Shown here piece by piece: positions 5,596-21,784 of a DNA stretch of 64,000 bases. Each line of letters begins with the position of its first letter. The stretch's first letter is position 1. A model generated the notes under the pieces. That model did not search any database. It was not told the DNA's origin and saw nothing but the letters and a program-made list of their open reading frames with translations. The stretch is from Xanthocytophaga flava (GTDB taxonomy: Bacteria; Bacteroidota; Bacteroidia; Cytophagales; 172606-1): NCBI GenBank assembly GCA_030068525.1, contig JASJOS010000006.1:372001-436000 (forward strand), read 5' to 3'. Position numbers and translations under genes: made by a program.

Positions 5596-7101
5596 TTATT
5601 TTTCAAATCCATAAATAAGCTTTTGTGAACTATTCGGATATTTTCCCATCAGATTGACCATATCATCTGACTGGTTAATAGCTTTTAATAGTTCATCTAC
5701 ATTTTTAACAGGCTGATTGTTCACTTTCATAATAATAAAACCTGGACGAACACCTGCTTCACGAAGTTTACCAGTATAAATGGAAGAAACTTTTACACCA
5801 AATTCAACTCCTGCCTTCTTCTTATCCTCTGCTGATAAATTGGCAAATTCAACTCCAAGAGATTCCACAGCTTCACTACGCTCTCTTTTTACGATTGCTG
5901 CGTTATTGGATAGACCTTTCAATGTAACCTTTACAGCGGTCTCACTACCTTTGCGGTTAACTAAAACATTGATCACATCTCCAGGACGATGACGAGCAAT
6001 CTTTTCTTTGATATCAGCAATAGTTCCGATTGAACTCTCATCAATTTTAAGAATCACATCATTTTCTTTCAGACCAGATGAAGCCGCAGAACCACCTGCA
6101 ATCAAGCTATCAAGGAATACACCAGATTGAACCTTCAGACCATTTTTCTCAATAGCTTCTTTGTCTACCTGACCCAGTACTACTCCTAAGTAAGCTTGTT
6201 GTACAGAACCATATTTCAGGATATCTTCTACTACCTTACTTACCAGGTTAGCTGGAATAGCAAATCCATAACCAGCATAGCTACCTGTAGGAGAGGCAAT
6301 AGCTGTGTTGATACCAATAAGGTCTCCGTTCAGATTAACCAGAGCCCCACCACTGTTACCAGGGTTAATAGCTGCGTCAGTCTGAATGAAAGATTCTACA
6401 GGAACACGGTTTGCCGCATCTCCTTGTAAGATACCAATGCTACGACCTTTTGCACTCACAATACCTGCTGTTACAGTAGATTCCAGTTGTAATGGGAATC
6501 CAACCGCCATTGCCCATGAGCCGATCTTAACATTGTCAGAGTTGGCAAAGGCTAGTTTAGGAAGGTTGTTTGCAGAGATTTTAATAAGTGCAAGATCTGT
6601 ATTTGGATCTGTACCAATCACTTTCGCTTTGAAGGAACGTTTGTCACTCAGGAAAACCTCCAGTTCATCTGCATTTTCAACTACGTGGTTGTTTGTTACA
6701 ATGTAACCGTCTGAACTGATAATTACGCCAGAACCAGATGCTTTTTGAGGTCCTTGTGGACGCATTTCGAAATCACGGAAACGGCGGCCAAAGAATTGTT
6801 CAAATGGATCCATACCTTCCTGATCTTCTCTCTCTCCACGAGAAGCTACCTGACTACCAACAGTAGAACGGATGTTTACAACCGCAGGAACAACCGCTTC
6901 TGCTGCTGCCGAAAAGTCTCCCTGTGGATTTTCATTACCAGAAACAACAGATGCATTATGATAGAAATCAGCTGCTTTCTCAATAAATACAGGTTTGTTT
7001 TCTCCACGATTAAAGCAGGCAAAACCGCCCAATGTTAACATGCTGCCAAGTATGGCAGCAACAAAGATTTTTGCATATTCTGCACTCAACAACTTTTTCA
7101 T
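5596..7101 (-). CDS. degP: Do/HtrA family periplasmic serine endopeptidase
   Basis: DegP-type protease/chaperone that degrades misfolded envelope proteins. It has 501 residues, with an N-terminal hydrophobic segment (FVAAILGSMLTLGGFACF, residues 13-30) serving as signal or anchor. The trypsin-like domain carries the triad His139 (TNNHVV), Asp169 (NTDLALIKI) and Ser250 (GNSGGALV). A first PDZ domain starts near residue 295 (AYLGVVLG...), and a second degenerate PDZ lies near 410-490 (VESLGVEF... GFIIMKVNNQPV). This order is the normal Do architecture. A regulatory LA-like loop rich in acidic and Arg residues (about 88-115) precedes the core. It is transcribed alone, ending at the hairpin at 5544-5573. 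Confidence 0.94.
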   Translation of the reverse strand: MKKLLSAEYAKIFVAAILGSMLTLGGFACFNRGENKPVFIEKAADFYHNASVVSGNENPQGDFSAAAEAVVPAVVNIRSTVGSQVASRGEREDQEGMDPFEQFFGRRFRDFEMRPQGPQKASGSGVIISSDGYIVTNNHVVENADELEVFLSDKRSFKAKVIGTDPNTDLALIKISANNLPKLAFANSDNVKIGSWAMAVGFPLQLESTVTAGIVSAKGRSIGILQGDAANRVPVESFIQTDAAINPGNSGGALVNLNGDLIGINTAIASPTGSYAGYGFAIPANLVSKVVEDILKYGSVQQAYLGVVLGQVDKEAIEKNGLKVQSGVFLDSLIAGGSAASSGLKENDVILKIDESSIGTIADIKEKIARHRPGDVINVLVNRKGSETAVKVTLKGLSNNAAIVKRERSEAVESLGVEFANLSAEDKKKAGVEFGVKVSSIYTGKLREAGVRPGFIIMKVNNQPVKNVDELLKAINQSDDMVNLMGKYPNSSQKLIYGFEK

Positions 7102-7426
7102 ACTTCGGGATTTTTAGACTATTTGAGTTTTGTTAAATAATGTTTTTTGCTGCTATAATAACAAATTTCATGCGTGTCGGATTGCGTTGTCAGTGTTTTT
7201 TAACACAATTTAACTAAGCTTAACAATTATTTAGAACTAAGGTTTTGTGATTGGGTTTCAATTGCAATTATTATAAAAATTAACTAAAAAACTATGCTAT
7301 ATGTTGTCTTAAATGATTGCAATTGTGACAAGTGGTAATTAATGCTATTTAAACTATCCGAGTCTTAACATAGAAAAACCTTATGAAGATTATCTTCATA
7401 AGGTTTTGACTGGAAGCAAAGCTTGA
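7102..7426. other. intergenic region between degP and hsp20
   Basis: No gene is seen. The left part must contain the degP promoter (minus strand) and is very AT-rich. The right end holds the hsp20 terminator, listed separately. A TTGCAATT-type motif occurs twice (about 7262 and 7317), without a clear meaning. Confidence 0.5.
7375..7407 (-). terminator. intrinsic terminator of hsp20
   Basis: A 15-bp perfect stem, 7375-7389 pairing with 7393-7407 (AAAACCTTATGAAGA and its complement), with a three-base loop. Both flanks are A/T runs, so it could act in both directions, but only hsp20 reads into it. Confidence 0.85.
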
Positions 7427-7855
7427 TTATTTAATAGCAATAGATTTAGGTTTTACTTCTTCTGCCTTTGGTACGACTACTACCAGAACACCATTTTCAT
7501 ATGTAGCTTCGATATTTTCTGCGTTCACATTTTCTGGTAAAGTGAAAGATCTTTTGAAAGAAGAATAGTTGAATTCTTTACGTGTCCATTTTCCGTTTTC
7601 TTCTTTCTTTTCTTCTTTTTGCTCAGAAGAAATTGTCAATACACGACCATCCAAATTGATATTGAAATTTTCTTTTTGTTGTCCAGGTGCCGCTACTTCC
7701 AATGTGTATCCTGTTTCATTTTCATGAACGTTTACAGCTGGAATGTTTGAGCGATAATCTTGTCCTACAGAAGTGTTGAAATCATTTAATAATTCGTTCA
7801 AAAGGTTTCTGTAAGGGAAAACACTGGATGGTTGGTTGAATCTAACGAGTGCCAT
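7427..7855 (-). CDS. Hsp20/alpha-crystallin family small heat-shock protein
   Basis: ATP-independent holdase chaperone of 142 residues. A short N-terminal arm (residues 1-35) precedes the alpha-crystallin domain, which runs from IPAVNVHENETGYTLEVAAPG through FNINLDGRVLTISSEQ to YENGVLVVVVPKAE. The arm ends at FNTSVGQDY. The C-terminal tail carries the short KSIAIK motif (I-x-I), the anchor used for oligomer assembly. It is monocistronic, with a terminator after it and a repeat-bearing leader upstream (about 7990-8055) that may regulate it. Confidence 0.93.
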   Translation of the reverse strand: MALVRFNQPSSVFPYRNLLNELLNDFNTSVGQDYRSNIPAVNVHENETGYTLEVAAPGQQKENFNINLDGRVLTISSEQKEEKKEENGKWTRKEFNYSSFKRSFTLPENVNAENIEATYENGVLVVVVPKAEEVKPKSIAIK

Positions 7856-7988
7856 AGTTTTACTAGTTTTAAGTTATTTAGTTGAATGTTTTTCGTTTTG
7901 TGTACCTTTTGTAATCAGGTACGCTATGAGTTATTCAACTTATGTACCAACCAGAAAAAATGATAATTTTTAACAGTTTGGGAAATAT

Positions 7989-8051
7989 TTTAATGACAAA
8001 AAGTCTTATATTGCGTCTTTTATGTCTTTTTTTAATGACATAATGTCTTTT
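7989..8051. promoter_or_regulatory. paired repeat TTAATGACAnnnnGTCTT upstream of hsp20
   Basis: The motif TTTTAATGACAAAAAGTCTT at 7989-8008 recurs as TTTAATGACATAATGTCTT near 8031-8049. Each copy is itself a partial inverted repeat (GAC...GTC; GACAT-A-ATGTC). Between them are further GTCTTTT units. The copies lie 130-195 bases upstream of hsp20 and could be binding sites for a heat-shock or stress regulator. This is inference from repetition only. Confidence 0.35.
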
Positions 8052-8103
8052 TTTTCTTTGTTTAGCTCGCACAAGTTTGGGCGTTAAGGTCCCTGGATAA
8101 AGA

Positions 8104-8134
8104 AACAGCCTGAAGTATGGTTCTTCAGGCTGTT
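8104..8134 (-). terminator. intrinsic terminator downstream of the SDR gene
   Basis: AACAGCCTGAAG at 8104-8115 pairs perfectly with CTTCAGGCTGTT at 8123-8134 around a seven-base loop. It lies just beyond the 3' end of the minus-strand SDR gene. Confidence 0.8.
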
Positions 8135-8182
8135 CCTTTATTTGGGTTATTCGTTTATAACTATAAACTTGTTGCTTATATT

Positions 8183-8920
8183 TTATCGGCCATTCATAGC
8201 TAATAAGGCATCTGCAGGAGAGGATTTGCTTAAATCGTAAATATATGCGGTTTGGCCAACATGAATTTCATATATATCATTCTTTAGAGAATGAATGAGT
8301 TCTTCCGCTACAGCTTGTGGAGAAATCCCATTCTCACCACCTATCTCTTTTGAAAAATCAGTATTTACTAGGGGAGGCATAAGCTCATATACTTTAACTG
8401 AAGTATTTTCGAGTGAAATCCGTATTGATTGAGAATAGGAATGCAAAGCAGCTTTGCTTGCTGAATAGGTACTCAATTTATGGTTGGGGACGAATGCTAC
8501 TACAGAAGAGACTTGTACAATTGCTGATTCTGGTTGGTTTTTTAATATTGGCAATAATTTTTCGTTCAGTCGTATGATAGATAGATAATTGGTAAGGATT
8601 TCTGCTTGGGCATAATCAAATGATTGAGTATTTTCAGAAAGATTATGTAGATAAGCTTTGCCTGCATTGTTAATTACGATGTTCAACTGAGGATATTCAC
8701 TATATAACTTCGAGACGAGGTTTTCTACATCCTCTTCATTGCTGATATCGCTTACAATAGGTATAACGCCAGGCAATTGTTCAGCTGCATATTTTAGTCT
8801 ATTTTCATCTCTACCTGTAATAATTACTTTGTTTGACTTTGATACAAATTGTTTGGCGATTTCAAATCCAATACCAGCACTTCCACCAGTAATAAGGATT
8901 GTATTGTTAGATGTTTTCAT
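8183..8920 (-). CDS. SDR family oxidoreductase (DltE-like)
   Basis: Short-chain dehydrogenase of 245 residues. It shows TGGSAGIGFEIA at residues 11-22 (cofactor binding), NNAGKAY after strand four, and the catalytic SSVVAFVPNHKLSTYSASKAAL (Ser, Tyr and Lys in correct spacing). The Gly-x-x-x-Gly-x-Gly and the following residues TGRDENRL suggest NADP preference through the Arg. The C-terminal PPLVNTDFSKEIGG part matches the DltE-like uncharacterised subgroup. The substrate is unknown. It stands alone between a terminator and a promoter region shared with the AAA+ operon. Confidence 0.9.
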   Translation of the reverse strand: MKTSNNTILITGGSAGIGFEIAKQFVSKSNKVIITGRDENRLKYAAEQLPGVIPIVSDISNEEDVENLVSKLYSEYPQLNIVINNAGKAYLHNLSENTQSFDYAQAEILTNYLSIIRLNEKLLPILKNQPESAIVQVSSVVAFVPNHKLSTYSASKAALHSYSQSIRISLENTSVKVYELMPPLVNTDFSKEIGGENGISPQAVAEELIHSLKNDIYEIHVGQTAYIYDLSKSSPADALLAMNGR

Positions 8921-9297
8921 TTTGTTAAGGGAAAGACTATTTGAATTGTTATACTGATTGGTTTATTATCTATTTTAATACATGGTGTTTTATTGCTTAA
9001 ATAATAATTTTTAGTGCAATTGTGTTTTCAAAAATACCTATTGGTATTTCTTATTAGTACAAATACATTTTGGATAAAGTTCGTGTAGCTTAATGAATTT
9101 TATAAAATCTGTATTTTTTTATAATGGGCGTGCTATTTGAGGAAATGGTAAATATACTTAATGGTATATAATATATGTTCATTGTAAGGTTTGTATTACT
9201 ATAGGTGACCAATAGAAAAGTAACATGGATTGAGAGTATAGATTTAGTAGATTTTAGGAAAAGATTTATCTTGCTGTCGTCTATTTACTTTTAATGA
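8921..9297. other. divergent promoter region of the SDR gene and the AAA+ operon
   Basis: A gene-free, strongly AT-rich stretch of 377 bases separates the SDR gene (minus) from the first AAA+ gene (plus). It must hold the promoter for the three-gene operon. I found no convincing inverted repeat or sigma-54 element here. Confidence 0.5.
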
Positions 9298-12200
9298 ATG
9301 AAAATTCTTCCATTACATTTACTTATTGGTGAATCTCTGCATCAATCTGGCAATAGAATGTTATTCCCACTGCATCTGCCAGGAGTTGTCCGATTTAATA
9401 CCTCACCACAACAACTAGCCAAACAGGTTGCCAAGGCGTTTCAGGAGAACGTGCTTAAGAAGGGGCTTTACGATCAGATTCTAAGCTATTTTAGTAATGA
9501 GGATCTGATACAGGATAGGTTGAATGTGAAGCTGGATGCCTCTATGGATCAGTTGTTCCCAGAGCTTGAGCTTCTATTTGATATTTTTTATTTTCAGAAT
9601 GAAAGTCTACAATTTATTGGATTTGTTCCCTTACTGAGTATTGAGTCTGTAGGAAAAACGCTTGATGAACTTTTTATAAATCTTTCGGAGAATATACGGT
9701 TAGAATTTATACGAAAGAAGCGTCTTCAGTCTGTTGCTACATTAATAACCACCCAGTGGTTTAGTGAGGTAAAGGTCCATCGTGTGCCAGTTGACCTGAC
9801 ATTCTATACCTTGGCAGAACTGGAAAAAATGGCAGAGGCTGGTAAGCAGCAGATTTTACCGGAAGTTGCACAAAAAATAGGTTCAGATATTGTCACGTTG
9901 GTAGGATTAACAAAAGAGTATGACCAATTAGCGTCTCTACTAAGTGGCTATTTGAGAAATAGTGTTGTAGTGGTAGGCAATTCAGGAAAAGGCAAAACTA
10001 CATTGATTCGCGAATTTTTTGGAAAAAGAAATCACCATGGATTGGGGAATGTAGCTGTCTGGGAAATTTCCGCGGCACAACTGCTTCATCGGCTTACCTC
10101 CTTGGGGAGCTGGGAAGAATACCTGGCATATATGTGTAATGAACTGAGGGCCAAAGGTGACCTTCTATATATTAGTAATCTGGCTGAATTATTTGAGGTT
10201 GGTCAGTATGTTGGAAACAGTATGTCGTTTGCAGATTATCTGCGCGATTATATTGCCAGAGGGGAAATTACTGTGATTAGTGAATGTACGCCTGAACAGA
10301 TAACTCAAATTGAGTTAAAGTCTCCTGGTTATACTGCACTATTTGCACAAGTAAAAATTGAAGAGATGCCTGGTCATGTAATCCAACAGATTGTATTGCA
10401 GAAAGTTGCACTGGCAAGTCAATCCAAGAATATCACTGTTGAAGAAATTGCTACAAAAGAAATTTTGCGTTTACAGCAGTGGTATAGCCCATATTCCGGA
10501 TTGCCAGGAAAAACCATTCGTTTTCTGGAAGCATTACTTTCAGAAAACGAAAAGTATTCAACCGTATCCAAATCAGATATTTATGCCCGTTTTTGTCAGG
10601 AGACCGGTATGCCTGAATTCATGATAAATCCGGATATTCCGTTGGATATTGACGCCATGAGCCAATTTTTTTATAAGAACATTTATGGTCAGGAAGATGC
10701 CATTCAGACAGTGCTGGATGTCTTGATTTCCATCAAAGCAGCTGTAATACGAAGAGGCAAACCATTGGCTTCACTATTATTTGTTGGACCCACAGGTGTA
10801 GGAAAGACAGAAATGGCAAAGGTGTTGGCAGAATTTGTGTTTGGCAATCGCCAGAAAATGATTCGCTTTGATATGAGTGAATATGCAGATTATCTATCCG
10901 TGTTACGACTTACAGGTGATCTATATGCCTCGGGTGAGGGCTTGCTGACAGCAGCTGTTAGACGTGAGCCTTTTTCTGTATTGTTGTTTGACGAACTTGA
11001 AAAAGTACATCCCTCTTTCTACGATCTGTTATTGCAGATTCTTGGAGAGGGTCGACTAACAGATTCAAAAGGTCGGGTGGCAGATTTTTGTAGTACAATT
11101 ATTATTCTGACCTCTAATATTGGGGCTCGCAGTTATCAGGTTGGGACGGTTGGTTTTATAGAAACCAAAGCTCAGAAAGACACTGCTATATCTCATTTTC
11201 AGAATGAAGTACAGAATTTCTTCCGGCCTGAATTATTCAATCGCCTGGATCGGATACTGGCATTTGCTCCTTTGGAGAGATCTGTAATCCGACATATTGT
11301 AGATCGAGAGATATCCATTCTGAAAAAACGAGAGGGTATCAATGGTCGTAACCTTGTGATCGATATAGCCAAAGATATACTGGACTATTTGGGTAGAGAA
11401 GGTTACAACTGGGCATACGGAGCACGTTTTCTGCAACGAACCATTCAGGACAAGATTGTAATTCCGCTTTCTGGTCACCTGAATACATATGAGTTTCATG
11501 TGCCTCTGGACATTACAATAGATCTGAAAGAAAACGAACCTCATTTTCGGATCAATCGAAGAAATGAAACACAACTCATTGAGCAGGTAGTTGAGGAAAA
11601 TTCAGAACTTACCATTATTGAATTTACAAATGAAGTTACTAAACAACGACGAAATGCCATTACTATTCGTAATGGTAGTTATTATGCACACTTTATTAGT
11701 CGTCTTGATCAGTTGAATCGGAAACTGGCAAAACTAAAAGACAAAAGACAGGAGCAGAAGTTCTGGCAGGATGATGTACAAAGTAAAGTGTATCATGAAC
11801 TGATGACAATCAGGGATGATTTTGATTTGATTACTCAGCAGATACAGTCTATTGAAAGCGAGAATTTCCTTTTATTGAATGGGATTGAAGGAAAAACTCC
11901 GGAATTGTATCGGCTTTTTAAATCATGGAAAACCCAATTTCAGAATTTGAAAATAAAGCTGGTACGACAGGAAAATCCTGAGTTTATGAAATGCATTATT
12001 GGCATTTATGGACATTCAGGGAGTGTAATGCAACTGGCTGATATCTACAGGAACCTGAGTATGGAGAGGGGATATATAGTCAATGCTTTCCAGATCTGGC
12101 ACAATAATCAGGAAATTGTATTCACAGGCGAAACCTGGCAACGGTTTAGGCCTTATAACTTGTATGCGGATCTTAAAAAGCAACCGTTAGTATACCTGCG

Positions 12201-12567
12201 ATTTTCGTATGATAAGCCAATAGATGATAACTATGCTTTGGTTGGCGTTGAGTTGGAAGTAACAGGGAACTTGCCTTTTCTGTTTTTTAAAAGTGAAACT
12301 GGAGGACATAATGTGACAACTGCTGCAGGTGAAATACGAAAATATCAGGTAATTGTCTCTACCCAACCTTTTGATAAGTTTAAGACTCCTGGAGGTATTC
12401 ATCGGAAAAACTTTTTTGAAGGTCATAAAGCCCGCCGTCAGTATACACCCAAGGGATTACAGGATACTACCTATGATTTACTTACAAGTACAAACCAATA
12501 TGAACAGTCTTTAAGTAAAGTTCTGCAACATCAGTTTAATACAGCTATTGACAGTTATCTGTTGTAA
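9298..12567 (+). CDS. Clp/Hsp100-like double AAA+ ATPase with C-terminal RF2-like domain (paralogue 1)
   Basis: 1089 residues. Residues 1-200 are an unfamiliar N-terminal region, not a Clp_N double repeat. AAA module 1 has Walker A GNSGKGKTT (227-235), but its Walker B position reads LLYISNLAEL (289-298), so the Asp-Glu pair is lost. AAA module 2 is complete: GPTGVGKTE (from 497), LLFDELEKVH (Asp565-Glu566), sensor TSNIGA, arginine finger FFRPELFNRLD and sensor 2 GAR. A VGF tripeptide at 618-620 sits where ClpC/ClpA have the ClpP-docking loop. From about 800 on, a coiled coil with KFWQDD (Trp823), then YGHSGSVMQLADIYR, VTGNLPFLFFKSETGGHNV (His1004) and a final VLQHQFNTAIDSYLL follow the RF2 order, but no GGQ motif is present. 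First gene of three; the next starts 38 bases later. Function is inferred only. Confidence 0.85.
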   Translation: MKILPLHLLIGESLHQSGNRMLFPLHLPGVVRFNTSPQQLAKQVAKAFQENVLKKGLYDQILSYFSNEDLIQDRLNVKLDASMDQLFPELELLFDIFYFQNESLQFIGFVPLLSIESVGKTLDELFINLSENIRLEFIRKKRLQSVATLITTQWFSEVKVHRVPVDLTFYTLAELEKMAEAGKQQILPEVAQKIGSDIVTLVGLTKEYDQLASLLSGYLRNSVVVVGNSGKGKTTLIREFFGKRNHHGLGNVAVWEISAAQLLHRLTSLGSWEEYLAYMCNELRAKGDLLYISNLAELFEVGQYVGNSMSFADYLRDYIARGEITVISECTPEQITQIELKSPGYTALFAQVKIEEMPGHVIQQIVLQKVALASQSKNITVEEIATKEILRLQQWYSPYSGLPGKTIRFLEALLSENEKYSTVSKSDIYARFCQETGMPEFMINPDIPLDIDAMSQFFYKNIYGQEDAIQTVLDVLISIKAAVIRRGKPLASLLFVGPTGVGKTEMAKVLAEFVFGNRQKMIRFDMSEYADYLSVLRLTGDLYASGEGLLTAAVRREPFSVLLFDELEKVHPSFYDLLLQILGEGRLTDSKGRVADFCSTIIILTSNIGARSYQVGTVGFIETKAQKDTAISHFQNEVQNFFRPELFNRLDRILAFAPLERSVIRHIVDREISILKKREGINGRNLVIDIAKDILDYLGREGYNWAYGARFLQRTIQDKIVIPLSGHLNTYEFHVPLDITIDLKENEPHFRINRRNETQLIEQVVEENSELTIIEFTNEVTKQRRNAITIRNGSYYAHFISRLDQLNRKLAKLKDKRQEQKFWQDDVQSKVYHELMTIRDDFDLITQQIQSIESENFLLLNGIEGKTPELYRLFKSWKTQFQNLKIKLVRQENPEFMKCIIGIYGHSGSVMQLADIYRNLSMERGYIVNAFQIWHNNQEIVFTGETWQRFRPYNLYADLKKQPLVYLRFSYDKPIDDNYALVGVELEVTGNLPFLFFKSETGGHNVTTAAGEIRKYQVIVSTQPFDKFKTPGGIHRKNFFEGHKARRQYTPKGLQDTTYDLLTSTNQYEQSLSKVLQHQFNTAIDSYLL

Positions 12568-12605
12568 AGACATTTTCTTGTACTCTCCAGTTTTGCAAAT
12601 TTTAT

Positions 12606-15600
12606 ATGGCCAATATTCATTTTGAAATACCTATCTGGGTTCAACATAAAAAAGAGCAATACATTATTCGTCCGCTGTTTCATTCGGAATGGTATGCAGC
12701 TGATGAACGGTATGAGAATGCTATTCGCAAACTTACTCAGCTTATCCGAAAGGAATTTTCACAATATAGAGTTGAGCGGGATAACTCGGATGAGTTGTTA
12801 TGGCTGTTGTTTAATCCGGAATTCAAGTTTGAATCCATAGATTTTGATTTTAATTATGGGCAACGCTTTTTTAATGGAAAGTTGTCTGTTGCTTGGTTTA
12901 TACAAGGAGAGTATACAGTAGTATTATTGCCAGCTTTTGGAAATTATCAGTTTATTTCCAGAAAACCCAATGCACGCAGATCTGATGTGGTCGAAGAAGT
13001 AATACAACAAGTCCAGATCTATGCTCGCAAGTATACAAAGAAGAAAGATGAAGAGTTTATACTGGATGGATTTGCATCAGGCAAAGGTGAGTTTTGTACA
13101 ACATTGGATCTGCACATGTTTGTGCCTGGAGAAAAAATCCTTGGAGATACTAACAACCTGTTTCAACAGTTTTTTCGTAGTGAAATATCATTTGATGGCA
13201 GACGGGAAATTGTACGCGTAGGACACGATCTCAATGACTGGTATCCTACACAACTCAGCAGAGCATATTTTTCAGATTTGATAGTGGAACAGCTGAAAAC
13301 TTTACTCTATAACCGGGAGAATATCCCTGTTGTACTGATAGGAGATCGTAAAGTAGGAAAAACAACGATTCTGCATGAAGTAGTATACCGACATGTGGAA
13401 GAACATGCCGACAAGCAATTATCTAAACTAGATAATGTGTGGAATGTAGATCCTTCCCGAATTATTGCAGGGATGAGTATTGTAGGGGCCTGGCAACGAC
13501 GCTTTGAAGCAATCATTCGCTTTGTTATGCATCCGCTCGAAAAGAATCCTCGTCAGGATAAACTATATTTTACAAATATTGTGTCCTTGTTCCGGATTGG
13601 GAAGTCATCTCAGAACAGCATGACGTTAAGCGATGTCTTAAAACCTTATCTTCAGGGACGGAGATTGCAGGTCATTCTGGAGGCTACTCCCGAAGAGTGG
13701 GCAGTTGTCAGTGAAATTGATCGTGGGTTTACGGATTTATTTAAGGTTATTCGTTTGTATGAACCAGATGAGACCACAGGATTGAAGATTATAAGCAAGC
13801 TTCGTAATCAGCTTGAACAGGAACATCAGTTTGGAATCAGCAATCTGGCTTTAGTTAGATTAATCGAACTTCAGAAACGCTTTCATATTTCCAGAGGTCT
13901 GGTTGGAGTAGTAGCGGAAAGTTTGCATCAATTGGCAACTAAATATGCTAAAAAAGAGATTGATGTACAGACGATCATAAGCGAATTTAGTAGTCAGACA
14001 CATTTGAATGAAAGATTGGCAAATCAGGATATTCGTATTGGTCGTACTGAATTTGCTGATTATCTGGCTGAACGCCTTATCGGGCAACCGGAAGCTGTAG
14101 ATTGCCTTACAGATGTTTTGAATGTAATCAAAGCACAACTGAATAATCCTGAGCGTCCGTTTGGAGCGTTTTTGTTTATTGGACCCACAGGGGTAGGCAA
14201 GACACAGGCAGCGAAAATTCTGGCTAGATATTTATTCACACACGATGAAAGCCTGGTTCGTTTTGATATGAATGAATTCATCGATGATGACGCTGTAAAC
14301 CGATTGGTAGGCGATTTTACCAATCCAGAAGGCCAACTTACTACTAAAATTCGTTACAACTCCTTTTGTGTTCTTCTATTTGACGAAATTGAGAAAGCAC
14401 ATCCGGATGTACACAACCTGTTGTTGCAGATATTAGGTGAAGGGCGTCTGACAGATGCCTTGGGACGGACTGTCAGCTTTTGTAATACTGTTATTATCAT
14501 GACGTCTAATCTGGGTGCCGAACGTGTTGGAAAAGAAATCAATCTGCAACGTAGAGAGGATATCACAACGCGGACATATGAAAAGGCCGTGCGTGATTTC
14601 TTCCGACCGGAATTCATCAATCGGATTGACAGAATTGTCTTTTTTCAAAAGCTTACCTCTCAACACATTGGGCTTATTGCCTGGCTTCAGATCAAAGAAC
14701 TACTTAAACGGCATGGTTTTCTGCGTCGTCATACCATTTTAAATGTTTCACCGGAAGTACTGGAAGCGATTGCTCAAAAAGGATTTGATCCGGAAATGGG
14801 AGGGAGAGCACTAAAACGTCAGATTGAGAAAGAACTCACCGTATTGATTGCCGATAAGCTGGTACTGATTGCCCCTGACAAACCTGTTATTTTTAGTTTG
14901 TTTCACCGGGATGGTCAGTTTATGCCACATCTTACTCTGTTGGAACATATACCAAGAAACGAAACATCGGAACTGCCTAACCTGGAAAATCTTGAAATTA
15001 CATTTGATTTGTTTGCTGAATTGTTGGAAACTGTAGAGGATATTAAAGAAGAGTTGCTGGAAATGGATCAGGAGAATAGTAGTCTGGTATATTCAACGGA
15101 AACGAACAAGGAAGCTTCCCAACTGATGTATTTTAAGGAATCGTTAACAGAGATAGAAGCAAAGCTTACGAATATTCTTTGGGAGTATCAGGCTGGTAAG
15201 AAAATGAATATTGCAAAGACGGTTCTTCCTTTAAAGAGTGTTTCGGGAGTAAAAAGAATACGTAACTATGGTTGGAATGGCGAAGGGAAAGTATTCTTGA
15301 CAGAATTGTATAGTCAGCTGGAAATATCAGATTACTTTAATGAGATTCATGAATCTGCTGCTCGAATAGTAAACGAAACGAATGCTTTGTACTTCTATCT
15401 GTCACAGGACATAGCATGGCTTGATTTCAACCTTACTTGTTATGTAGAGCAACGACCTGGGCAGATTTTACTTCGTATAGCGTCTGCCGTTGGAAACTCA
15501 GGAAGTAATGAGATAGAATATATGGAGAAGATGTATAGGACAGTATTTGGACTTACTACAAAAGTAAAGCAGGAAAAAGGCTATATCTACCTACATATTC

Positions 15601-15941
15601 ATGCTACAGGTGTATACCATCTGTTTCAGCAGGAAGTTGGATTTCACATGTTTTTTTCTTCTCATGAAACCTCTGTTCCGGTGGAAGTTTCTGTGTATCC
15701 AGTTGAGACTGGCTCAGATATAAATACCCTCATTTATGAGATTGAAAAAGGAAGGAAATCTCCTGTTGATAGTGATGAACAATCTGTAAGTCACATTGTA
15801 CGCCTATACGTGCTGGGAGATGGTAAAATCAAACGTACACTCATTACGGATTTAAGGTCTGGTATTGTTCATAATAAAGACCTGACTTATCAGGAACTCA
15901 AATGGTTGTTTTATGCCAATACCATTACTCAGGATGAGTAA
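12606..15941 (+). CDS. Clp/Hsp100-like double AAA+ ATPase with C-terminal RF2-like domain (paralogue 2)
   Basis: 1111 residues with the same plan as the gene before it. The N-terminal region is about 230 residues. AAA module 1 has Walker A GDRKVGKTT (246-254) but LYFTNIVSL at the Walker B place, without Asp-Glu. AAA module 2 is intact: GPTGVGKTQ (from 526), LLFDEIEKAH (Asp593-Glu594), MTSNLGAE, FFRPEFINRID, GGR at sensor 2. The ClpP-loop place reads EINL, unlike the VGF of its neighbours. The C-terminal 290 residues look like a class I release factor without its GGQ domain: ILLRIASAVGNSGSNEIEYMEKMYR (PCRF-like), IHATGVYHLFQQEVGFHMF (His1014), then HIVRLYVLGDGKIK and ITDLRSGIVHNKDLT, matching the QIRSYVL...KDLRTG tail of RF2. 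Probable subunit of a mixed complex. Confidence 0.85.
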   Translation: MANIHFEIPIWVQHKKEQYIIRPLFHSEWYAADERYENAIRKLTQLIRKEFSQYRVERDNSDELLWLLFNPEFKFESIDFDFNYGQRFFNGKLSVAWFIQGEYTVVLLPAFGNYQFISRKPNARRSDVVEEVIQQVQIYARKYTKKKDEEFILDGFASGKGEFCTTLDLHMFVPGEKILGDTNNLFQQFFRSEISFDGRREIVRVGHDLNDWYPTQLSRAYFSDLIVEQLKTLLYNRENIPVVLIGDRKVGKTTILHEVVYRHVEEHADKQLSKLDNVWNVDPSRIIAGMSIVGAWQRRFEAIIRFVMHPLEKNPRQDKLYFTNIVSLFRIGKSSQNSMTLSDVLKPYLQGRRLQVILEATPEEWAVVSEIDRGFTDLFKVIRLYEPDETTGLKIISKLRNQLEQEHQFGISNLALVRLIELQKRFHISRGLVGVVAESLHQLATKYAKKEIDVQTIISEFSSQTHLNERLANQDIRIGRTEFADYLAERLIGQPEAVDCLTDVLNVIKAQLNNPERPFGAFLFIGPTGVGKTQAAKILARYLFTHDESLVRFDMNEFIDDDAVNRLVGDFTNPEGQLTTKIRYNSFCVLLFDEIEKAHPDVHNLLLQILGEGRLTDALGRTVSFCNTVIIMTSNLGAERVGKEINLQRREDITTRTYEKAVRDFFRPEFINRIDRIVFFQKLTSQHIGLIAWLQIKELLKRHGFLRRHTILNVSPEVLEAIAQKGFDPEMGGRALKRQIEKELTVLIADKLVLIAPDKPVIFSLFHRDGQFMPHLTLLEHIPRNETSELPNLENLEITFDLFAELLETVEDIKEELLEMDQENSSLVYSTETNKEASQLMYFKESLTEIEAKLTNILWEYQAGKKMNIAKTVLPLKSVSGVKRIRNYGWNGEGKVFLTELYSQLEISDYFNEIHESAARIVNETNALYFYLSQDIAWLDFNLTCYVEQRPGQILLRIASAVGNSGSNEIEYMEKMYRTVFGLTTKVKQEKGYIYLHIHATGVYHLFQQEVGFHMFFSSHETSVPVEVSVYPVETGSDINTLIYEIEKGRKSPVDSDEQSVSHIVRLYVLGDGKIKRTLITDLRSGIVHNKDLTYQELKWLFYANTITQDE

Positions 15942-16017
15942 AGAGAACATATATATATGAAAGATTTATTGCTGATTTTGTTTCAATTATCTTTTAGCGG
16001 ATGCGCTACTACATTTT

Positions 16018-18258
16018 ATGAAAATACTGGAGTTTCCATTACTGTGTCGTCGAATAGATGAAAATACCATACTGGGGCAGATTATAGGCCTGGATAAACA
16101 ACTGGTGTCTGATGATATTCGTGGCCTTACAGGTGATTTTTCTGAATATATTGAAAAGCAACTTCAGCGGGGAGCATACTACGAACCAGAGATTCTGCAA
16201 CCAAGGATTAAAACACTCAAACTTATTATACGTCCTCACTACCAGGAAAAACAGCGAATTTATCCTGTAAAAGAATCTATTGAGTTTCCGGTTTATGCTG
16301 TATATGGAGGCAATGAACAGGGGTTTTTCGAGTGCTTTCTACCATTGCTTGATAAAAGTTTTTATTTCTATTCTGAAAAAGATCTGGATAAACTCATAGA
16401 GCACTTTGCCAAAGATGTACTTCACAACATGGATCCTGGCAAAATCTATAGTTTATTGCAAAGTTCTGCTCCATGGTTGGAGAGTGTTACTGTGAAAGTA
16501 CCTAGGGTCGAACAGCCCAAAACTAAGGCAGATGATTTCTCACATCTCCAGATGCTGAACAGTGTAGCTGAGAGACTTCCTTATGCCAGAAAAAGTACCA
16601 GGTTAGTCCTGGATGCGGCTTGGGAGAGGGGAGAATTTGTTGATAAGCTGATTTCTTTTCTGTTGACAGGAAAAAACAATGTTCTGCTTGTGGGTAATTC
16701 AGGTGTTGGTAAAAGTACAATTATCCATGAAGCTATTCGAAAAATACATCAGCAGGAGAAGTCACAGGAAGATTTCGAGCGTCATTCATTCTGGCGTACA
16801 ACTCCTGCCCGTATTACTGCCAAAGCAAAATATCTGGGTGAATGGCAGGAAAACTGTGAAGAACTGGTCAGTGATCTGGTACATGCAAATGGTATTGTCT
16901 GGATTGAGAATTTTGTGATGCTGGCTCTGACTGGTGGAGAAGGACCCGAAGATTCTGTAGCTGCTTTTCTAACCTCATTTATCCGGCAAAAACAATTGCA
17001 GATGATAAGTGAAGTAACTCCTGAGCAATTAGATGTAATGCGTAAGCTTTTGCCTGGCTTTGTCGATCATTTCCAGATCTTGCCCGTGCAGGAGATGAAT
17101 ACGGCTACAATGTTAAAAATATTCGATTACTTTACAGCACATGCTGAAAAACATCAAAAGGTTTCTTTTTCACATCAGGCTCTGGAAACAGTGTATATGC
17201 TTCTGGATCGATTTGTCCGTTATGAAAGATTCCCAGGTAAGGCCATTCGCTTTCTGAATCAGTGTGTGAATAAAGCGCTTCAGACCCAACAGTCGATTAT
17301 TGATCCGCAGGTGGTTATCAAAAATTTTTCTCGCCAAACTGGTTTGCCCGATATCTTGCTTCGGGATGACTTGCTATTGGATAATAAGGTGCTAAGAAAG
17401 CATTTCAGTGATCGCATTAAAGGGCAGGATCATATACTAGATAAAATTATTTCAGTGATCAAAGTATTTAAGGCCGGTTTAAATGATCCCAATAAGCCCA
17501 TTGCTTCCATGATCTTTGCTGGGCCTACCGGAGTAGGGAAAACGGCTACTGCTCAGACCCTGGCCGATTATTTCTTTGGTATTAGTCAAACCTATCAACC
17601 TCTGATACGGCTTGATATGAGTGAGTTTCAGCACCCTGGACAAATTTATCGATTGATTGGAGCTGAAGGCAAGCTGGTACAGTTTGTCAGAGAAAAGCCG
17701 TTTTGTGTAGTTTTATTGGATGAAATTGAAAAGGCGCACCCATTGATTTTCGATGCCTTGCTTACTGTGTTAGATGAAGGGATCTTAATTGATTCAACAG
17801 GACGTGTAACAGATTTCCGGAATTCGATCATTATTATGACATCCAATCTGGGTGCTTCGCAGCGAGGTTCTGTAGGATTTCGTACTTATCAGACAAATGA
17901 TTTTGAGGCTGGTATCAAAGCCTTTTTCCGTCCTGAGTTTTTTAACCGGATTGATCTCATACTGCCATTCTATGCATTAGATCAGGATACCATCCGTGAA
18001 ATTACTTTATATGAACTGAGTCATATTGGGACGCGGGATGGTATTAAGAATCGTGGATTAAAGCTTTCCTATACAGATGAGTTAGTTTATTATATAGCAG
18101 AGAAAGGATTTGATAAAAAATATGGGGCTCGTCCTCTCCAGCGGGAAATTGAACGGTTGATCGTCGCCCCATTGGCTCGCTTGATTTTGCAGCGTCCAGA
18201 ATTATACAATCAGGAGGTCTTGATCGGGTATGAGAAGGATTCAGTTGTATTTGTCTGA
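16018..18258 (+). CDS. Clp/Hsp100-like double AAA+ ATPase without RF-like tail (paralogue 3)
   Basis: 746 residues; third gene of the set, 76 bases after the second. It has the same N-terminal region of about 200 residues (opening MKIL like paralogue 1). AAA module 1 has Walker A GNSGVGKST (226-234) and a ruined Walker B (IVWIENFVML, Glu297-Asn298). AAA module 2 is complete: GPTGVGKTA (from 502), VVLLDEIEKAH (Asp568-Glu569), MTSNLGAS, FFRPEFFNRIDL and sensor 2 YGARPLQREIE. VGF at 619-621 matches the ClpC-type ClpP loop. It stops right after the D2 small domain, so it lacks the coiled coil and RF-like extension of its neighbours. No ClpB-type middle domain is inserted. It may be the motor subunit that oligomerises with the two RF-like paralogues. 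Confidence 0.87.
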   Translation: MKILEFPLLCRRIDENTILGQIIGLDKQLVSDDIRGLTGDFSEYIEKQLQRGAYYEPEILQPRIKTLKLIIRPHYQEKQRIYPVKESIEFPVYAVYGGNEQGFFECFLPLLDKSFYFYSEKDLDKLIEHFAKDVLHNMDPGKIYSLLQSSAPWLESVTVKVPRVEQPKTKADDFSHLQMLNSVAERLPYARKSTRLVLDAAWERGEFVDKLISFLLTGKNNVLLVGNSGVGKSTIIHEAIRKIHQQEKSQEDFERHSFWRTTPARITAKAKYLGEWQENCEELVSDLVHANGIVWIENFVMLALTGGEGPEDSVAAFLTSFIRQKQLQMISEVTPEQLDVMRKLLPGFVDHFQILPVQEMNTATMLKIFDYFTAHAEKHQKVSFSHQALETVYMLLDRFVRYERFPGKAIRFLNQCVNKALQTQQSIIDPQVVIKNFSRQTGLPDILLRDDLLLDNKVLRKHFSDRIKGQDHILDKIISVIKVFKAGLNDPNKPIASMIFAGPTGVGKTATAQTLADYFFGISQTYQPLIRLDMSEFQHPGQIYRLIGAEGKLVQFVREKPFCVVLLDEIEKAHPLIFDALLTVLDEGILIDSTGRVTDFRNSIIIMTSNLGASQRGSVGFRTYQTNDFEAGIKAFFRPEFFNRIDLILPFYALDQDTIREITLYELSHIGTRDGIKNRGLKLSYTDELVYYIAEKGFDKKYGARPLQREIERLIVAPLARLILQRPELYNQEVLIGYEKDSVVFV

Positions 18259-18268
18259 TAGTTTATGA

Positions 18269-18308
18269 TTTTTTCTTTGACGTCTTTTAAACAACTTCAA
18301 AGAAAAAA
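18269..18308. terminator. bidirectional AT-rich hairpin between the AAA+ operon and the P1 peptidase gene
   Basis: TTTTTTCTTTGA at 18269-18280 pairs with TCAAAGAAAAAA at 18297-18308. It lies exactly between two convergent genes, touching the stop of the peptidase gene, and has T or A runs on both sides. The stem has few G-C pairs, so its strength is uncertain. Confidence 0.55.
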
Positions 18309-19538
18309 TTACTCAAGTCGATTATATTCTTTCAGGATTTTGACCACTTTGTCCATAGGTAACGCTTCAATTACATGTTGTTCTTTACCTGTTGTGGTTT
18401 CGGCTTTAGTCATTGAGTTGATAATAGCTTCCTCTGTGGCTTCAATTACTGCCATAAATAGGGAAGACATGTAATCGTTGTGTAACAATGTAACAGTTTG
18501 GGTTGGTTGAGAGGGTTCATAGGGTATCCGAAGTGCTGGATCTGTAGAAAATGCTATGACATAATCGCCACTACCGTTGGCTGCAATTCCTCCGGTTTTT
18601 GCAAGTCCAAACATAGCACGTTTTGCCAGACGTTCCAGATTACGGGCATCCAGTGGTGCATCTGTTGCTACGATGATCATACAGGAGCCATCTGCGTCCT
18701 CTGTTTTTTTCGTGTTTTGAGACTTGCTGTCACCAGGAGCTTTTCTGGATTCTTTCTCTTTTTTCAATTGTGGACTTAAGTAATATTGGTCAAGGCGCTC
18801 TCCTACAGGTGCACCTGCTATCTGTAATACGCCACCAAAGTTGGTTTGGACAAGGACGCCTACTGTATATCCTCCAACCGCTTGTGGCAGCATTCTGGAG
18901 GAGGTGCCAATACCTCCTTTGAATCCAAAGCAAACAGTACCCGTGCCAGCTCCAACATTACCTTCCTGAACAGGTCCGTGTGTGGCTTTTTGAATTGCTT
19001 CCAGTACATGTGCTTTGTTGACATGTCTTCCACGAATATCATTCAGATAGCCATCATTCGTTTCTCCTATTACTGCATTTACTGATTGTACTTTCTCATT
19101 GCCAGCCTGGTCCACTGTATACTGAACAGTTGCTTCCATTGCTGTACCAACACTGAGGGTATTGGTGAGAATAATTGGTGTTTCCAGATTGCCCAATTCT
19201 GTTACCTGTGTACTGCCACTTAATTTTCCAAAACCATTGCCGACATAGACTGCTGCAGGTACTTTTTGCTGGAAAATGTTGCCATCATGTGGTGAAATAG
19301 CCGTAACACCCGTCCGGATTGAGTTGCCTATATGTAAAGTCACATGTCCAACTTTAACTCCTTGTACATCCGTTATTGCGTTGTGGGTGCCTGTTGGTAG
19401 TACTCCAATCCGGATACCATATTCTCTTGCTCTTTTTCGTCCAGAAGAAGTTTGTTTGGTTTGGCTGTGCACTTGAATCAGGAATAGATGGGTAATCAGG
19501 ATGGCAAAACAAAGTTGCCTGGAAGATAGGCTATACAC
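18309..19538 (-). CDS. P1 family peptidase (DmpA/BapA-type aminopeptidase), secreted
   Basis: Self-processing N-terminal nucleophile hydrolase of 409 residues with a signal peptide (residues 1-25, ending VHSQ). Family marks are REYGIRIGVLPTGTHNAITDVQGVKVGH near the start, GNVGAGTGTVCFGFKGGIGTSSR in the middle, and GSCMIIVATDAPLDARNLERLA. By comparison with DmpA, autocleavage is expected between Gly284 and Ser285, giving a beta chain of 125 residues, the family size; Ser285 would be the nucleophile. Such enzymes release D- or beta-amino acids from peptide N-termini. A charged Lys/Ser-rich insert (residues 258-284) precedes the cleavage point. It is transcribed convergently with the AAA+ operon, and nothing links the two functionally. 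Confidence 0.9.
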   Translation of the reverse strand: MYSLSSRQLCFAILITHLFLIQVHSQTKQTSSGRKRAREYGIRIGVLPTGTHNAITDVQGVKVGHVTLHIGNSIRTGVTAISPHDGNIFQQKVPAAVYVGNGFGKLSGSTQVTELGNLETPIILTNTLSVGTAMEATVQYTVDQAGNEKVQSVNAVIGETNDGYLNDIRGRHVNKAHVLEAIQKATHGPVQEGNVGAGTGTVCFGFKGGIGTSSRMLPQAVGGYTVGVLVQTNFGGVLQIAGAPVGERLDQYYLSPQLKKEKESRKAPGDSKSQNTKKTEDADGSCMIIVATDAPLDARNLERLAKRAMFGLAKTGGIAANGSGDYVIAFSTDPALRIPYEPSQPTQTVTLLHNDYMSSLFMAVIEATEEAIINSMTKAETTTGKEQHVIEALPMDKVVKILKEYNRLE

Positions 19539-19592
19539 TATAAAATGAGAGTTGATGAAAATGGAAGAAGATGCTATAATCTAAAAATAAAA

Positions 19593-19631
19593 GTTGCCCT
19601 TTCTGAGTATATTGTAATCAAAAAGGGCAAC
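19593..19631 (-). terminator. intrinsic terminator of the molybdenum hydroxylase unit
   Basis: GTTGCCCTTT at 19593-19602 pairs with AAAGGGCAAC at 19622-19631. On the minus strand the stem is followed by a U-rich tract. It lies directly after the large-subunit gene. Confidence 0.75.
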
Positions 19632-19639
19632 AAAACAAA

Positions 19640-21784
19640 TTATGAAATTCCTTTCATTCCTTCCTGTTCTGCAAAAGGCTGGTTACGGAGTCGTTTGCCT
19701 GTAGCTTTGAAAAGGGCATTAGCAACTGCGGCTCCGGTAGGAGGCAAGGCCGGCTCACCCAACCCAGTAGGGTCAATAGTATTTTCAACAAAATGCACTT
19801 CTACTTCCGGAATCTCATTCATACGGATCAGCCGATAGGTATTGAAATTAGATTGTTGGGGTGCACCATCTTTGAATGTCAGATTAGCGTACATAGCATG
19901 TCCTAGTCCGTCTACAATACCCCCCATTATTTGCTGACGTGCTCCACTTTTATTGATGACTACTCCACAATCAGCGGCTGCATAGATTTTCGTTAGTACT
20001 GGTTTCCCTTTTTGCATGACTACTTCACCTACCTGTGCAACATAGGAGAAGTGTGAAAAATAAACACTAAATCCTTGAGATACCCCTTTCTTTTTACCCC
20101 AACCTGATTTATCAACTGCCAGCTGAATAACAGATTTCATACGGTCAATATCGTACTTAATGGCACCTGTCGGAGATTTTTTTGCTTTGTCTAGTAACTC
20201 AAGCCGGAATTGTACCGGATCTTTTTTGGCAGCAGAAGCTACTTCATCCATAAAAGCTTGTTCTGCAAAGGCTAGAAAGTTGGTAATAGGAGCCCTCCAC
20301 GGACCTGTTGTGATTGGAGATTTATGTTCTACTGTATCAATGAGCAGATTCTCAACAGCTCCTGAGGGGAAGTTATCTTCACGGGTACAGTTGCCTGAAT
20401 TCATCCCTACACCTCGTAATTTGTAGCCAACCAGATTGCCTTGTTTGTCTAATGCTGCTTCAAAACGATAACGTACTGCCGGACGGTAACTGCCGCCTGT
20501 CATATCATCTTCCCGTGTCCAGATCACTTTTACAGGTGCTTTTACAAGATTGGATACTTCTACTGCTTCCAGTACATAGTCTGTTTTTAGCCGACGACCA
20601 AAACCACCTCCCATACGCGTCATTTCAACAGAGACTTTTTCAGGAGCAATATTCAGTAGTTTGGCTGTTTCGTTGCGTGCGGCCTCGGGGGTTTGGGTTG
20701 AACCTATGAGCTCTACGCTATCTGGTTTGACATGCGCAAAGAAGTTCATAGGTTCCAGTGGACTATGCGAAATAAAAGGACACTGATATTCGCTTTTGAT
20801 TACCTTGGCTGCATTCTTAAACGCCATCTCTACGTCTCCATCTTTTCTGCGAACAGTTGTATTGGTACTATTTAATAATTCTTCGAAAATACGATTGTGA
20901 TCCGTAGTACTTTCCAGATCACTTTCTTTTTCATACTCTATTTTCAGCAAATCAATAGCTTTCTTCACCTGCCAGGTTGATTTACCTACCACAGCCACAT
21001 TGTTTTTAAAGGTAATTACATCGGTAATACCAGACATAGATTTGGCTGCTGTGGAATCTACAGATTTTAATTTCAATCCAAAAGCTGAAGGGCGTTTGAT
21101 CATTGCAAACAGCATTCCTTCCCGATAAAAGTCTATTCCATAGAGTGGCTGACCTGTGAGAATTTTAGGATTATCAACATTTTTAGCTACCTGTCCAATG
21201 AGTTGAAAGTCTTTGACTTCTTTAAGCTTTACATCTGAAGGTACGGATAACTTAGCTGCTTCTGAAGCCAGTTCTCCATAACTTAGCTTACGCCCTGAGG
21301 TAGTATGAATAACCATCCCTTTTTCCGTCTTACATTCAGCTACTGGTACTTTCCATTGTTTTGCCCCAGCTTCGAGAAGCATCTGGCGGGCTGTAGCTCC
21401 TGCTTTACGTAGTCTTTGCCATGAATGTCTGATAGAACCACTGCCACCCGCGACCTGCCGTTCAAATTTTTGGGTGTCGAGAGGTGCCTGCATTACGTTT
21501 ACATTTTTCCAGTCCACATCCAGTTCTTCGGCAACAATCATAGGAAAGGCTGTTTTGATGCCTTGTCCTACTTCCGGATTAGGGGAGAAAATAGTCACAA
21601 TGCCATTGGGGGCAATAGAGAGATAACTGTTGAAATCAATAGCCCCAGCAAGAGTGCCTTCAGTTAGAATAGCTTGTGTATCTGCGCTGGCAGTGTTCCA
21701 GTTAAATCCCAGAAATAGCCCTCCACTCGTTGCTATTGCTAGTTTTAAGAAATTTCTTCGGCTAGGGTTAGGTAGAGTAGACAT
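19640..21784 (-). CDS. molybdopterin-binding large subunit of an IorB-like aldehyde/isoquinoline oxidoreductase
   Basis: Xanthine-dehydrogenase-family catalytic subunit of 714 residues. The N-terminus has a twin-arginine signal (PSRRNFLKLAIATSGG, residues 7-22), so it is exported folded with its cofactor. Molybdopterin-site stretches include GSGSIRHSW, VEMTRMGGGFGRRLKTDYV, GPWRAP and the C-terminal GLGEPALPPTGAAVANALF, whose GEP(A) Glu is the expected catalytic base. The arrangement (single long subunit with Tat signal plus a separate 2Fe-2S subunit) is that of isoquinoline 1-oxidoreductase beta subunits rather than cytosolic xanthine dehydrogenase. The substrate is unknown. It follows the iron-sulfur subunit gene by 2 bases, so they are co-transcribed. 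Confidence 0.9.
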   Translation of the reverse strand: MSTLPNPSRRNFLKLAIATSGGLFLGFNWNTASADTQAILTEGTLAGAIDFNSYLSIAPNGIVTIFSPNPEVGQGIKTAFPMIVAEELDVDWKNVNVMQAPLDTQKFERQVAGGSGSIRHSWQRLRKAGATARQMLLEAGAKQWKVPVAECKTEKGMVIHTTSGRKLSYGELASEAAKLSVPSDVKLKEVKDFQLIGQVAKNVDNPKILTGQPLYGIDFYREGMLFAMIKRPSAFGLKLKSVDSTAAKSMSGITDVITFKNNVAVVGKSTWQVKKAIDLLKIEYEKESDLESTTDHNRIFEELLNSTNTTVRRKDGDVEMAFKNAAKVIKSEYQCPFISHSPLEPMNFFAHVKPDSVELIGSTQTPEAARNETAKLLNIAPEKVSVEMTRMGGGFGRRLKTDYVLEAVEVSNLVKAPVKVIWTREDDMTGGSYRPAVRYRFEAALDKQGNLVGYKLRGVGMNSGNCTREDNFPSGAVENLLIDTVEHKSPITTGPWRAPITNFLAFAEQAFMDEVASAAKKDPVQFRLELLDKAKKSPTGAIKYDIDRMKSVIQLAVDKSGWGKKKGVSQGFSVYFSHFSYVAQVGEVVMQKGKPVLTKIYAAADCGVVINKSGARQQIMGGIVDGLGHAMYANLTFKDGAPQQSNFNTYRLIRMNEIPEVEVHFVENTIDPTGLGEPALPPTGAAVANALFKATGKRLRNQPFAEQEGMKGIS

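Follow-up and report, generated by a model that had tools for sequence, protein, structure and literature searches.

The protein encoded by ORF1, the first of three Clp-type genes in a row in a stretch of DNA from Xanthocytophaga flava (order Cytophagales), ends in a module (residues ~795-1089) that is almost certainly derived from release factor 2 (RF2), comprising the domain 1 coiled coil and the domain 2/4 fold without the GGQ domain or the SPF triplet. The stretch, referred to here as the window, covers 64,000 nucleotides of contig JASJOS010000006.1 (G000:C60:372001-436000) in a genome of 9.5 Mb, and the three consecutive genes, all on the plus strand, are ORF1 (P0001, family A; 9298..12567, 1089 amino acids), ORF2 (P0002, family B; 12606..15941, 1111 amino acids) and ORF3 (P0003, family C; 16018..18258, 746 amino acids), separated by 38 and 76 bases. 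ORF1 has an N-domain of its own, two AAA modules and the RF2-like C terminus; ORF2 is a two-AAA Clp protein with a probable, more diverged RF2-like C terminus, and ORF3 is a two-AAA Clp protein that carries no C-terminal module. A degenerate RF2-like release factor fused to a Clp-type ATPase, with the GGQ domain and SPF missing, was what the original prediction had read in ORF1, and profiles, fold and an independent relative, L067, corroborate it; the gene coordinates and the motifs quoted with it (KFWQDD, IIGIYGHSG, FKSETGGHN and VLQHQFNTAIDSYLL) are also correct.

As a single sequence, ORF1 matches the PCRF family (PF03462) at E=0.022 (15 bits, cut-off 24) and the NCBIfam model prfB at E=0.00099 (18.2 bits, cut-off 370), and among its homologues prfB is matched by four of five (best 1.7e-4) and PCRF by two of five (best 1.2e-3). 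A profile of 7 ORF1 homologues was compared by hhalign with the ten SPF-bearing members (RF2) among 31 Bacteroidota release factors, giving a probability of 95 and a score of 63.3 over residues 803-1010; against the remaining 21, SPF-less release factors the probability was 52, which suggests that the module is closer to RF2 than to these. No column shuffle of the ORF1 profile reached 63.3 (0/100, best 24.3), and the reversed query scored 21.2. Domains 2/4 taken without the coiled coil (residues 896-1089; 11983..12564) scored 37.1 against RF2, the shuffle maximum being 19.6 (0/100). Within the module (residues 795-1089; 11680..12564), the alignment places the FW motif and the ExGxH segment onto their RF2 counterparts: KFWQDD (residues 821-826; 11758..11775) is the counterpart of the FW(N/D) motif in RF2 domain 1, and FKSETGGHN (residues 997-1005; 12286..12312) is aligned to LKGENGVHR of RF2. 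IIGIYGHSG occupies residues 900-908, and the modules contain a segment of variable length within domain 2. The C-terminal helix VLQHQFNTAIDSYLL (residues 1075-1089; 12520..12564) falls weakly into the expected register with TEAVLNGEIDEFLKAWLM of RF2, with 1/200 shuffles equally good. GGQ is absent from ORF1, ORF2, the alignments A2 and A3, and L067, and the SPF triplet is absent behind ExGxH in both ORF1 and ORF2.

The predicted fold points the same way. The best AlphaFold model of the ORF1 module, built from a 7-row alignment, has a pLDDT of 76.8 and a pTM of 0.74, and a Foldseek search of the Protein Data Bank (PDB) with it returned 27 chains at E<=0.001, the best being RF2 at 2.7e-8. The titles of 25 of these name RF1, RF2, mtRF1 or a release factor; the other two are chains of 354 and 365 residues in ribosome entries (4v63 and 4v4s), which we infer to be release factors as well.

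Several results weigh against an RF2 origin. The original prediction had looked to PCRF and release-factor profiles, and although the profile comparison supports it at probability 95, the single-sequence scores of ORF1 against PCRF and prfB stay below the curated cut-offs. The hhalign match stops just after the ExGxH segment, SPF and the RF2 helix tip are lost, and a search of PDB sequences with ORF1 family profiles (hmmsearch) found no release factor. A fold resembling RF2 had likewise been expected, and the Foldseek matches are indeed release-factor structures, but the TM-scores of the model to RF2 are low (TMq 0.22-0.36), which may reflect how domain 1 is oriented and the absence of the GGQ domain. 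The other four AlphaFold models have a pLDDT of 53.7-65.8, so that only one of five is confident.

A fourth Clp-RF2 fusion, L067, puts the descent of such fusions from RF2 on firm ground. L067 is an 880-residue Clp protein (L117:10164-12806) from genome G154, in the same order and in family f18, and the C-terminal 301 residues have a single NCBIfam match, prfB, at E=6.3e-9 (35.3 bits, cut-off 370), together with PCRF at E=0.003 (17.8 bits, cut-off 24). Among 11 matches of this C terminus to PDB sequences, ten are RF2 (E 0.017-0.032). Compared by hhalign as a single sequence with RF2 stripped of its GGQ columns, it scored 58.2 over 222 columns that reach the RF2 end, a score equalled by 0/100 shuffles. 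L067 ends in an RF2 body that is less degenerate than that of ORF1 and that also lacks GGQ. Two observations on L067 count on the other side: the direct match between the ORF1 module and L067 is weak, 2/100 shuffles being as good, and the fusion stands without the ORF1-3 trio on the 13.8 kb read, where it has no Clp neighbor, meaning that the trio is not required for such a fusion. L067 also has no N-domain. L067 was not picked up when the order was searched with the profile of family A, and the distribution counts given below therefore cover family A alone, the fusion kind itself being probably wider. Flavin oxidoreductase-like genes that are 53% identical lie upstream of the family A gene in genome G001 (L008 1092-2450) and two genes before the L067 gene (L117 7630-8910); these are possibly what is left of a shared old locus, or a product of chance. 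The 389-residue reading frame directly before the L067 gene (L117 8915-10084) looks, by eye, similar to Pycsar-type effector membrane proteins.

ORF2 probably bears a second, more diverged RF2-like module (residues 800-1111; 15003..15938). The C terminus of the ORF2 family scored 31.5 against RF2 without the GGQ columns, which 0/100 shuffles reached (reversed, 20.6), and 36.4 against the L067 module (0/100 shuffles), in the latter case with only 17 columns aligned, at ExGxH. The ORF2 model is of low confidence (pLDDT 51.9) and has no PDB match at E<=0.001; its top five hits are RF2 or RF1 structures. Against a second module stand the results for ORF2 domains 2/4 alone, which do not match RF2 significantly (12/100 shuffles as good), the Pfam and NCBIfam release-factor families, which match none of six ORF2 members, and the direct comparison of the ORF1 and ORF2 modules by hhalign, which match one another at just 2%.

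The part of these proteins that precedes the modules is of Clp type. Each of the three ORFs has two AAA modules along with a ClpB D2-small domain, with PF07724 and PF10431 above cut-off, and TIGR02639 matches them at E 1.9e-94 to 3.6e-87. They miss the NCBIfam equivalog cut-offs, the best model per protein giving 293, 328 and 310 bits, where the cut-off for ClpA is 993 and that for ClpB 1232. In the N-domain of ORF1 (residues ~1-190; 9298..9867), a Pfam search gave no Clp_N match at E<=1 and no family above cut-off, and the N-domains of the families gave nothing above cut-off either. In family alignments of A, B and C (19 rows), Walker A, Walker B, sensor 1, the arginine finger and sensor 2 of D2 are retained wherever they can be read; in ORF1, the Walker A GPTGVGKT (10786..10809) and the Walker B LLFDELEK (10981..11004) are intact. 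D1 keeps Walker A (GNSGKGKT in ORF1, intact; 9976..9999), while all 18 readable rows have N or S in place of the Walker B glutamate (family B of G160 being unreadable) and the Walker B aspartate is substituted in A and B and changed to glutamate in C; at this position ORF1 has LLYISN, with both acidic residues substituted (10162..10179). D2 should hydrolyze ATP and D1 should only bind it, if these motifs are a guide.

The GYVG pore loop of D2 is missing from all 19 members of the three families. In ORF1 the pore-loop 1 region, RLTGDLYASGEG (10906..10941), is shortened, with one tyrosine left in ORF1 and in its orthologue in G002, a genome of the same genus. L067 also lacks the D2 GYVG and the D1 Walker B glutamate and is the 14th of the other Clp loci that we examined, the remaining 13 being canonical with GAPPGYVG and the D1 Asp-Glu pair. 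The D1 pore tyrosine is retained in family C ([KR]YLG; KYLG in ORF3) and in L067 and not in A or B. A loop of the IGF type, known for ClpP docking, is present in all six readable rows of A (VGF/IGF) and all six of C (VGF/LGF; VGF in ORF3), in none of six of B, ORF2 included, and in L067 (IGF); in ORF1 it reads GTVGFIE (11143..11163), the orthologues in family f14 having IGF, and its position in A and C is that of IGF in the ClpC-type ORFs L061, L065, L070 and L104. The original prediction spoke of attachment to an unfoldase. That part of it is weakened: with GYVG missing (19/19, and in L067, against its presence in 13/13 canonical loci) and the D1 Walker B glutamate replaced (18/18), ClpA/ClpB-like threading, and with it the label of an ordinary unfoldase, is doubtful for ORF1-3.

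The family trees disagree, and the RF2 fusions may number one, two or more. A tree of the whole AAA region groups A with C, a D2-only tree groups A with B, and when L067 is added, A joins B at 68 and C joins L067 at 57. The trees omit A of G001 and B of G160, which have broken frames, and include seven of the 13 canonical ORFs, with three Clp ORFs of the window's own genome in the trees that lack L067. That genome also holds L106 (G000:C20:24671-24910), a diverged Clp with a GAPPGYTGY pore loop and a long branch, possibly ClpV-like.

Among the genomes examined, ORFs 1-3 co-occur in the same six, even where they are unlinked. The ORF1 module was found in 7/390 genomes of the order, three from its own genus and four from family f14; a search of family f14 gave 4/15 genomes, and a phylum sample gave 1/395, the window's genome only. 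Family B is matched over its full length in five genomes and piecewise in one (G160), giving 6/241 genomes of the order with the three best candidates per genome scored, and family C was found in 6/23 genomes, the identical six. The N-domain of ORF3 occurs in 1/345 genomes of the phylum (the window's own) and has no plasmid match, and a scan of genome contigs with ORF1, the sole scan that reached other phyla, returned only the same-genus locus L008. In G001, which is 72% complete, only A was seen. The three genes lie side by side in the window's genome and in G002. In family f14, A is on a different contig, and B and C are neighbors in G160 but are split between contigs in G051, G102 and G036. 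The ORF1 orthologue in G001 (L008 2636-4543 and 4272-5915) and the ORF2 orthologue in G160 (L078 3652-6999) are each split into overlapping frames, either through assembly error or in reality.

An origin from a plasmid, phage or virus was rejected: the ORF1 module matched no plasmid or phage at E<=1 and no viral contig, and at E<=0.1 the L067 module matched no plasmid or phage either. A link to contractile injection systems is best regarded as a coincidence. A CIS_TMP tape-measure gene (PF19268) stands directly before the ORF1 orthologue in G160 (L022 4592-7608, in two frames), but in G036, G051 and G102 the CIS_TMP matches are on contigs other than that of the ORF1 orthologue, searches of the window's genome and of G002 gave none, and CIS_TMP occurs without the trio genes in 6/23 genomes. 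Read by eye, the trio neighborhoods of the two families have no recurring neighbor. Upstream of ORF1, on the opposite strand, lie genes for an HtrA/DegP-type protease and Hsp20 (window 5596-7855), which are also found in G002, and these surroundings are a proteostasis neighborhood in the source genus. Scans for promoters and terminators found sites in numbers similar to those in shuffled sequence, and an Rfam search of positions 7000-20000 gave no match.

Purifying selection acts on the ORF1 module, at whose border synonymous divergence from the nearest relative steps up. In a comparison of the window's ORF1 with that of G002 (L013:4333-7599; one species pair, bins of 50 codons), pS is 0.02-0.33 in the sixteen bins that precede codon 801 and 0.41-0.76 in the six that follow it. 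By region, dS goes from 0.15-0.19 (N, D1 and D2) to 0.55 in the coil, where dN/dS is 0.18, and to 1.22 in domain 2/4, where dN/dS is 0.07. The step coincides with the module border (~codon 800), and the simplest reading is that a diverged allele took the place of the resident one, in the manner of a cassette, in one lineage. ORF2, compared with the same genome, has pS peaks of 0.57 and 0.60 at codons ~301-350 and ~651-700, inside the AAA part, with hardly any amino acid change. Measured against family f14, divergence has been faster in the modules than in the AAA core, with identities of 61-65% (core) and 31-40% (module) for ORF1 and of 68-73% and 29-34% for ORF2. Net charge (-2 to +5 in ORF1 modules, -11 to -30 in ORF2 modules and -7 to -21 in true RF2) was uninformative as an indicator of ribosome binding and was not used.

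The explanation that we prefer, at slightly less than an even chance for the whole of it, is an AAA+ assembly docked on the translation apparatus through pseudo-RF2 modules. ORFs 1-3 would form a Clp-derived assembly of three subunit types, presumably a mixed ring, in which the ORF1 subunit for certain and the ORF2 subunit probably would contribute an RF2 body at the C terminus with its GGQ domain gone and its stop-codon-reading parts remodelled. These modules would dock the ring on the A-site region, the stalk base or a partner of RF2, with neither codon reading nor peptide release, and the use of ATP by D2 would remodel or clear the bound target, with ClpP as a possible partner. That the module could bring the motor to ribosomes or to an RF-like site, as had been proposed, is a plausible hypothesis; docking of the modules on ribosomes or on a termination factor is possible, at a probability we would set somewhat below even. 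Codon-dependent binding of the ordinary kind is unlikely because the parts of RF2 that read the stop codon are gone. Two points speak against docking: the C terminus in Clp rings lies on the ClpP side and might clash with ClpP docking, and by eye no translation gene directly adjoins the trio genes in the neighborhoods read, the closest being peptide deformylase, two genes from the ORF3 orthologue in G036. Replacement of a lost termination or rescue function was rejected. RF1 and RF2 with GGQ are both present in the source genome and tmRNA was found in 12/12 genomes checked, and the fusion therefore replaces no missing basic function. An extended form of the proposal, which we consider improbable, has a ring with two distinct pseudo-release factors seizing ribosomes (or attackers of release factors) independently of stop codons and coupling surveillance to a ClpP-type outlet, with L067-like relatives using one subunit and the module being exchanged between lineages as a cassette.

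It is also conceivable, if rather doubtful, that the RF2 fold has been retained merely as a scaffold for oligomerization or adaptor binding, with the link to translation gone. The loss of GGQ and SPF, the variable-length segment in domain 2 and the faster divergence of the modules would all fit, but ORF1, L067 and probably ORF2 have retained domain 1 and domain 2/4 jointly, and a simple scaffold would not need both. We think it unlikely that the modules instead serve as an integrated decoy or sensor, a bait for whatever attacks or binds release factors, such as a factor of a phage or competitor, with the AAA+ assembly as a switch that responds to binding with a signal or an action and is no translation factor. 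The pS step at the module border, as though the module were exchanged as a cassette, the patchy distribution and the lost D2 threading loop agree with a decoy, and inactive enzyme domains beside NTPase chaperones have been proposed as such (PMC7159879). Against it, the matches found by PADLOC (DolB, PDC-M37B and weaker ones) are confined to the AAA region, the low dN/dS of the module (0.07-0.18) is not the excess of an arms race, the pS peaks in the AAA part of ORF2 make mosaicism a feature not peculiar to the RF2-like module, and three of the four genomes of family f14 have A, B and C on separate contigs. Finally, a coiled coil and an alpha/beta domain that resemble RF2 by chance could account for the ORF1 scores under curated cut-offs, the PDB sequence searches without a release factor and the low TM-scores, but this is highly improbable, and was already disfavored, given 0/100 shuffles with and without the coiled coil, 27 best fold matches that are release-factor structures (25 named, two inferred) and the prfB match of L067 at 6.3e-9.

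Set beside known systems, the modules share with RF2 (prfB, TIGR00020) the domain 1 coiled coil with its FW motif, the domain 2/4 fold, the E-x-G-(V)-H segment and the C-terminal helix, and differ in lacking the GGQ domain and SPF, in their remodelled helix tip and in sitting behind a Clp-type ATPase. The cores resemble ClpC, ClpA and ClpB (Hsp100) in the order of D1 and D2, the intact D2 ATPase motifs and, in families A and C, the IGF-type loop; unlike these, the fusion families are without the glutamate of the D1 Walker B and the GYVG loop of D2, have a different N-domain, carry a pseudo-RF2 C terminus in A and probably in B, and occur as three paralogues together. ArfB/ICT1 and PrfH are GGQ-bearing rescue factors that, like the present modules, derive from class I release factors; ArfB retains GGQ and is missing the reading domain, and the ORF1 module is its opposite, keeping the body of the reading domain with GGQ gone. 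Vms1/bVLRF-1 with Cdc48 is another case in which a domain resembling a release factor is tied to an AAA+ chaperone, although it is of the archaeo-eukaryotic type with an RNase H fold and linked through a VIM motif rather than by fusion; the word Clp does not occur in the main text of this release-factor survey (PMC6514570). The NTPase-chaperone conflict systems also join an AAA+ chaperone to inactive enzyme modules, which are possible decoys; they are based on MoxR-vWA, and the term release factor has no occurrence in the paper that describes them (PMC7159879). No title or abstract opening among the literature matches listed, a coverage outside which most subscription papers fall, describes a fusion of a release factor with a Clp ATPase, and the Clp-RF2 fusion is, provisionally, apparently undescribed.

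In well-known bacteria, translation surveillance is joined to Clp proteolysis by tags such as that of tmRNA. A Clp-type ATPase and a catalytically empty RF2 body in one chain would be a direct physical link between surveillance and proteolysis, and Clp cores that have naturally lost the D2 threading loop but kept their ATPase motifs offer a test case for motors that work without threading.

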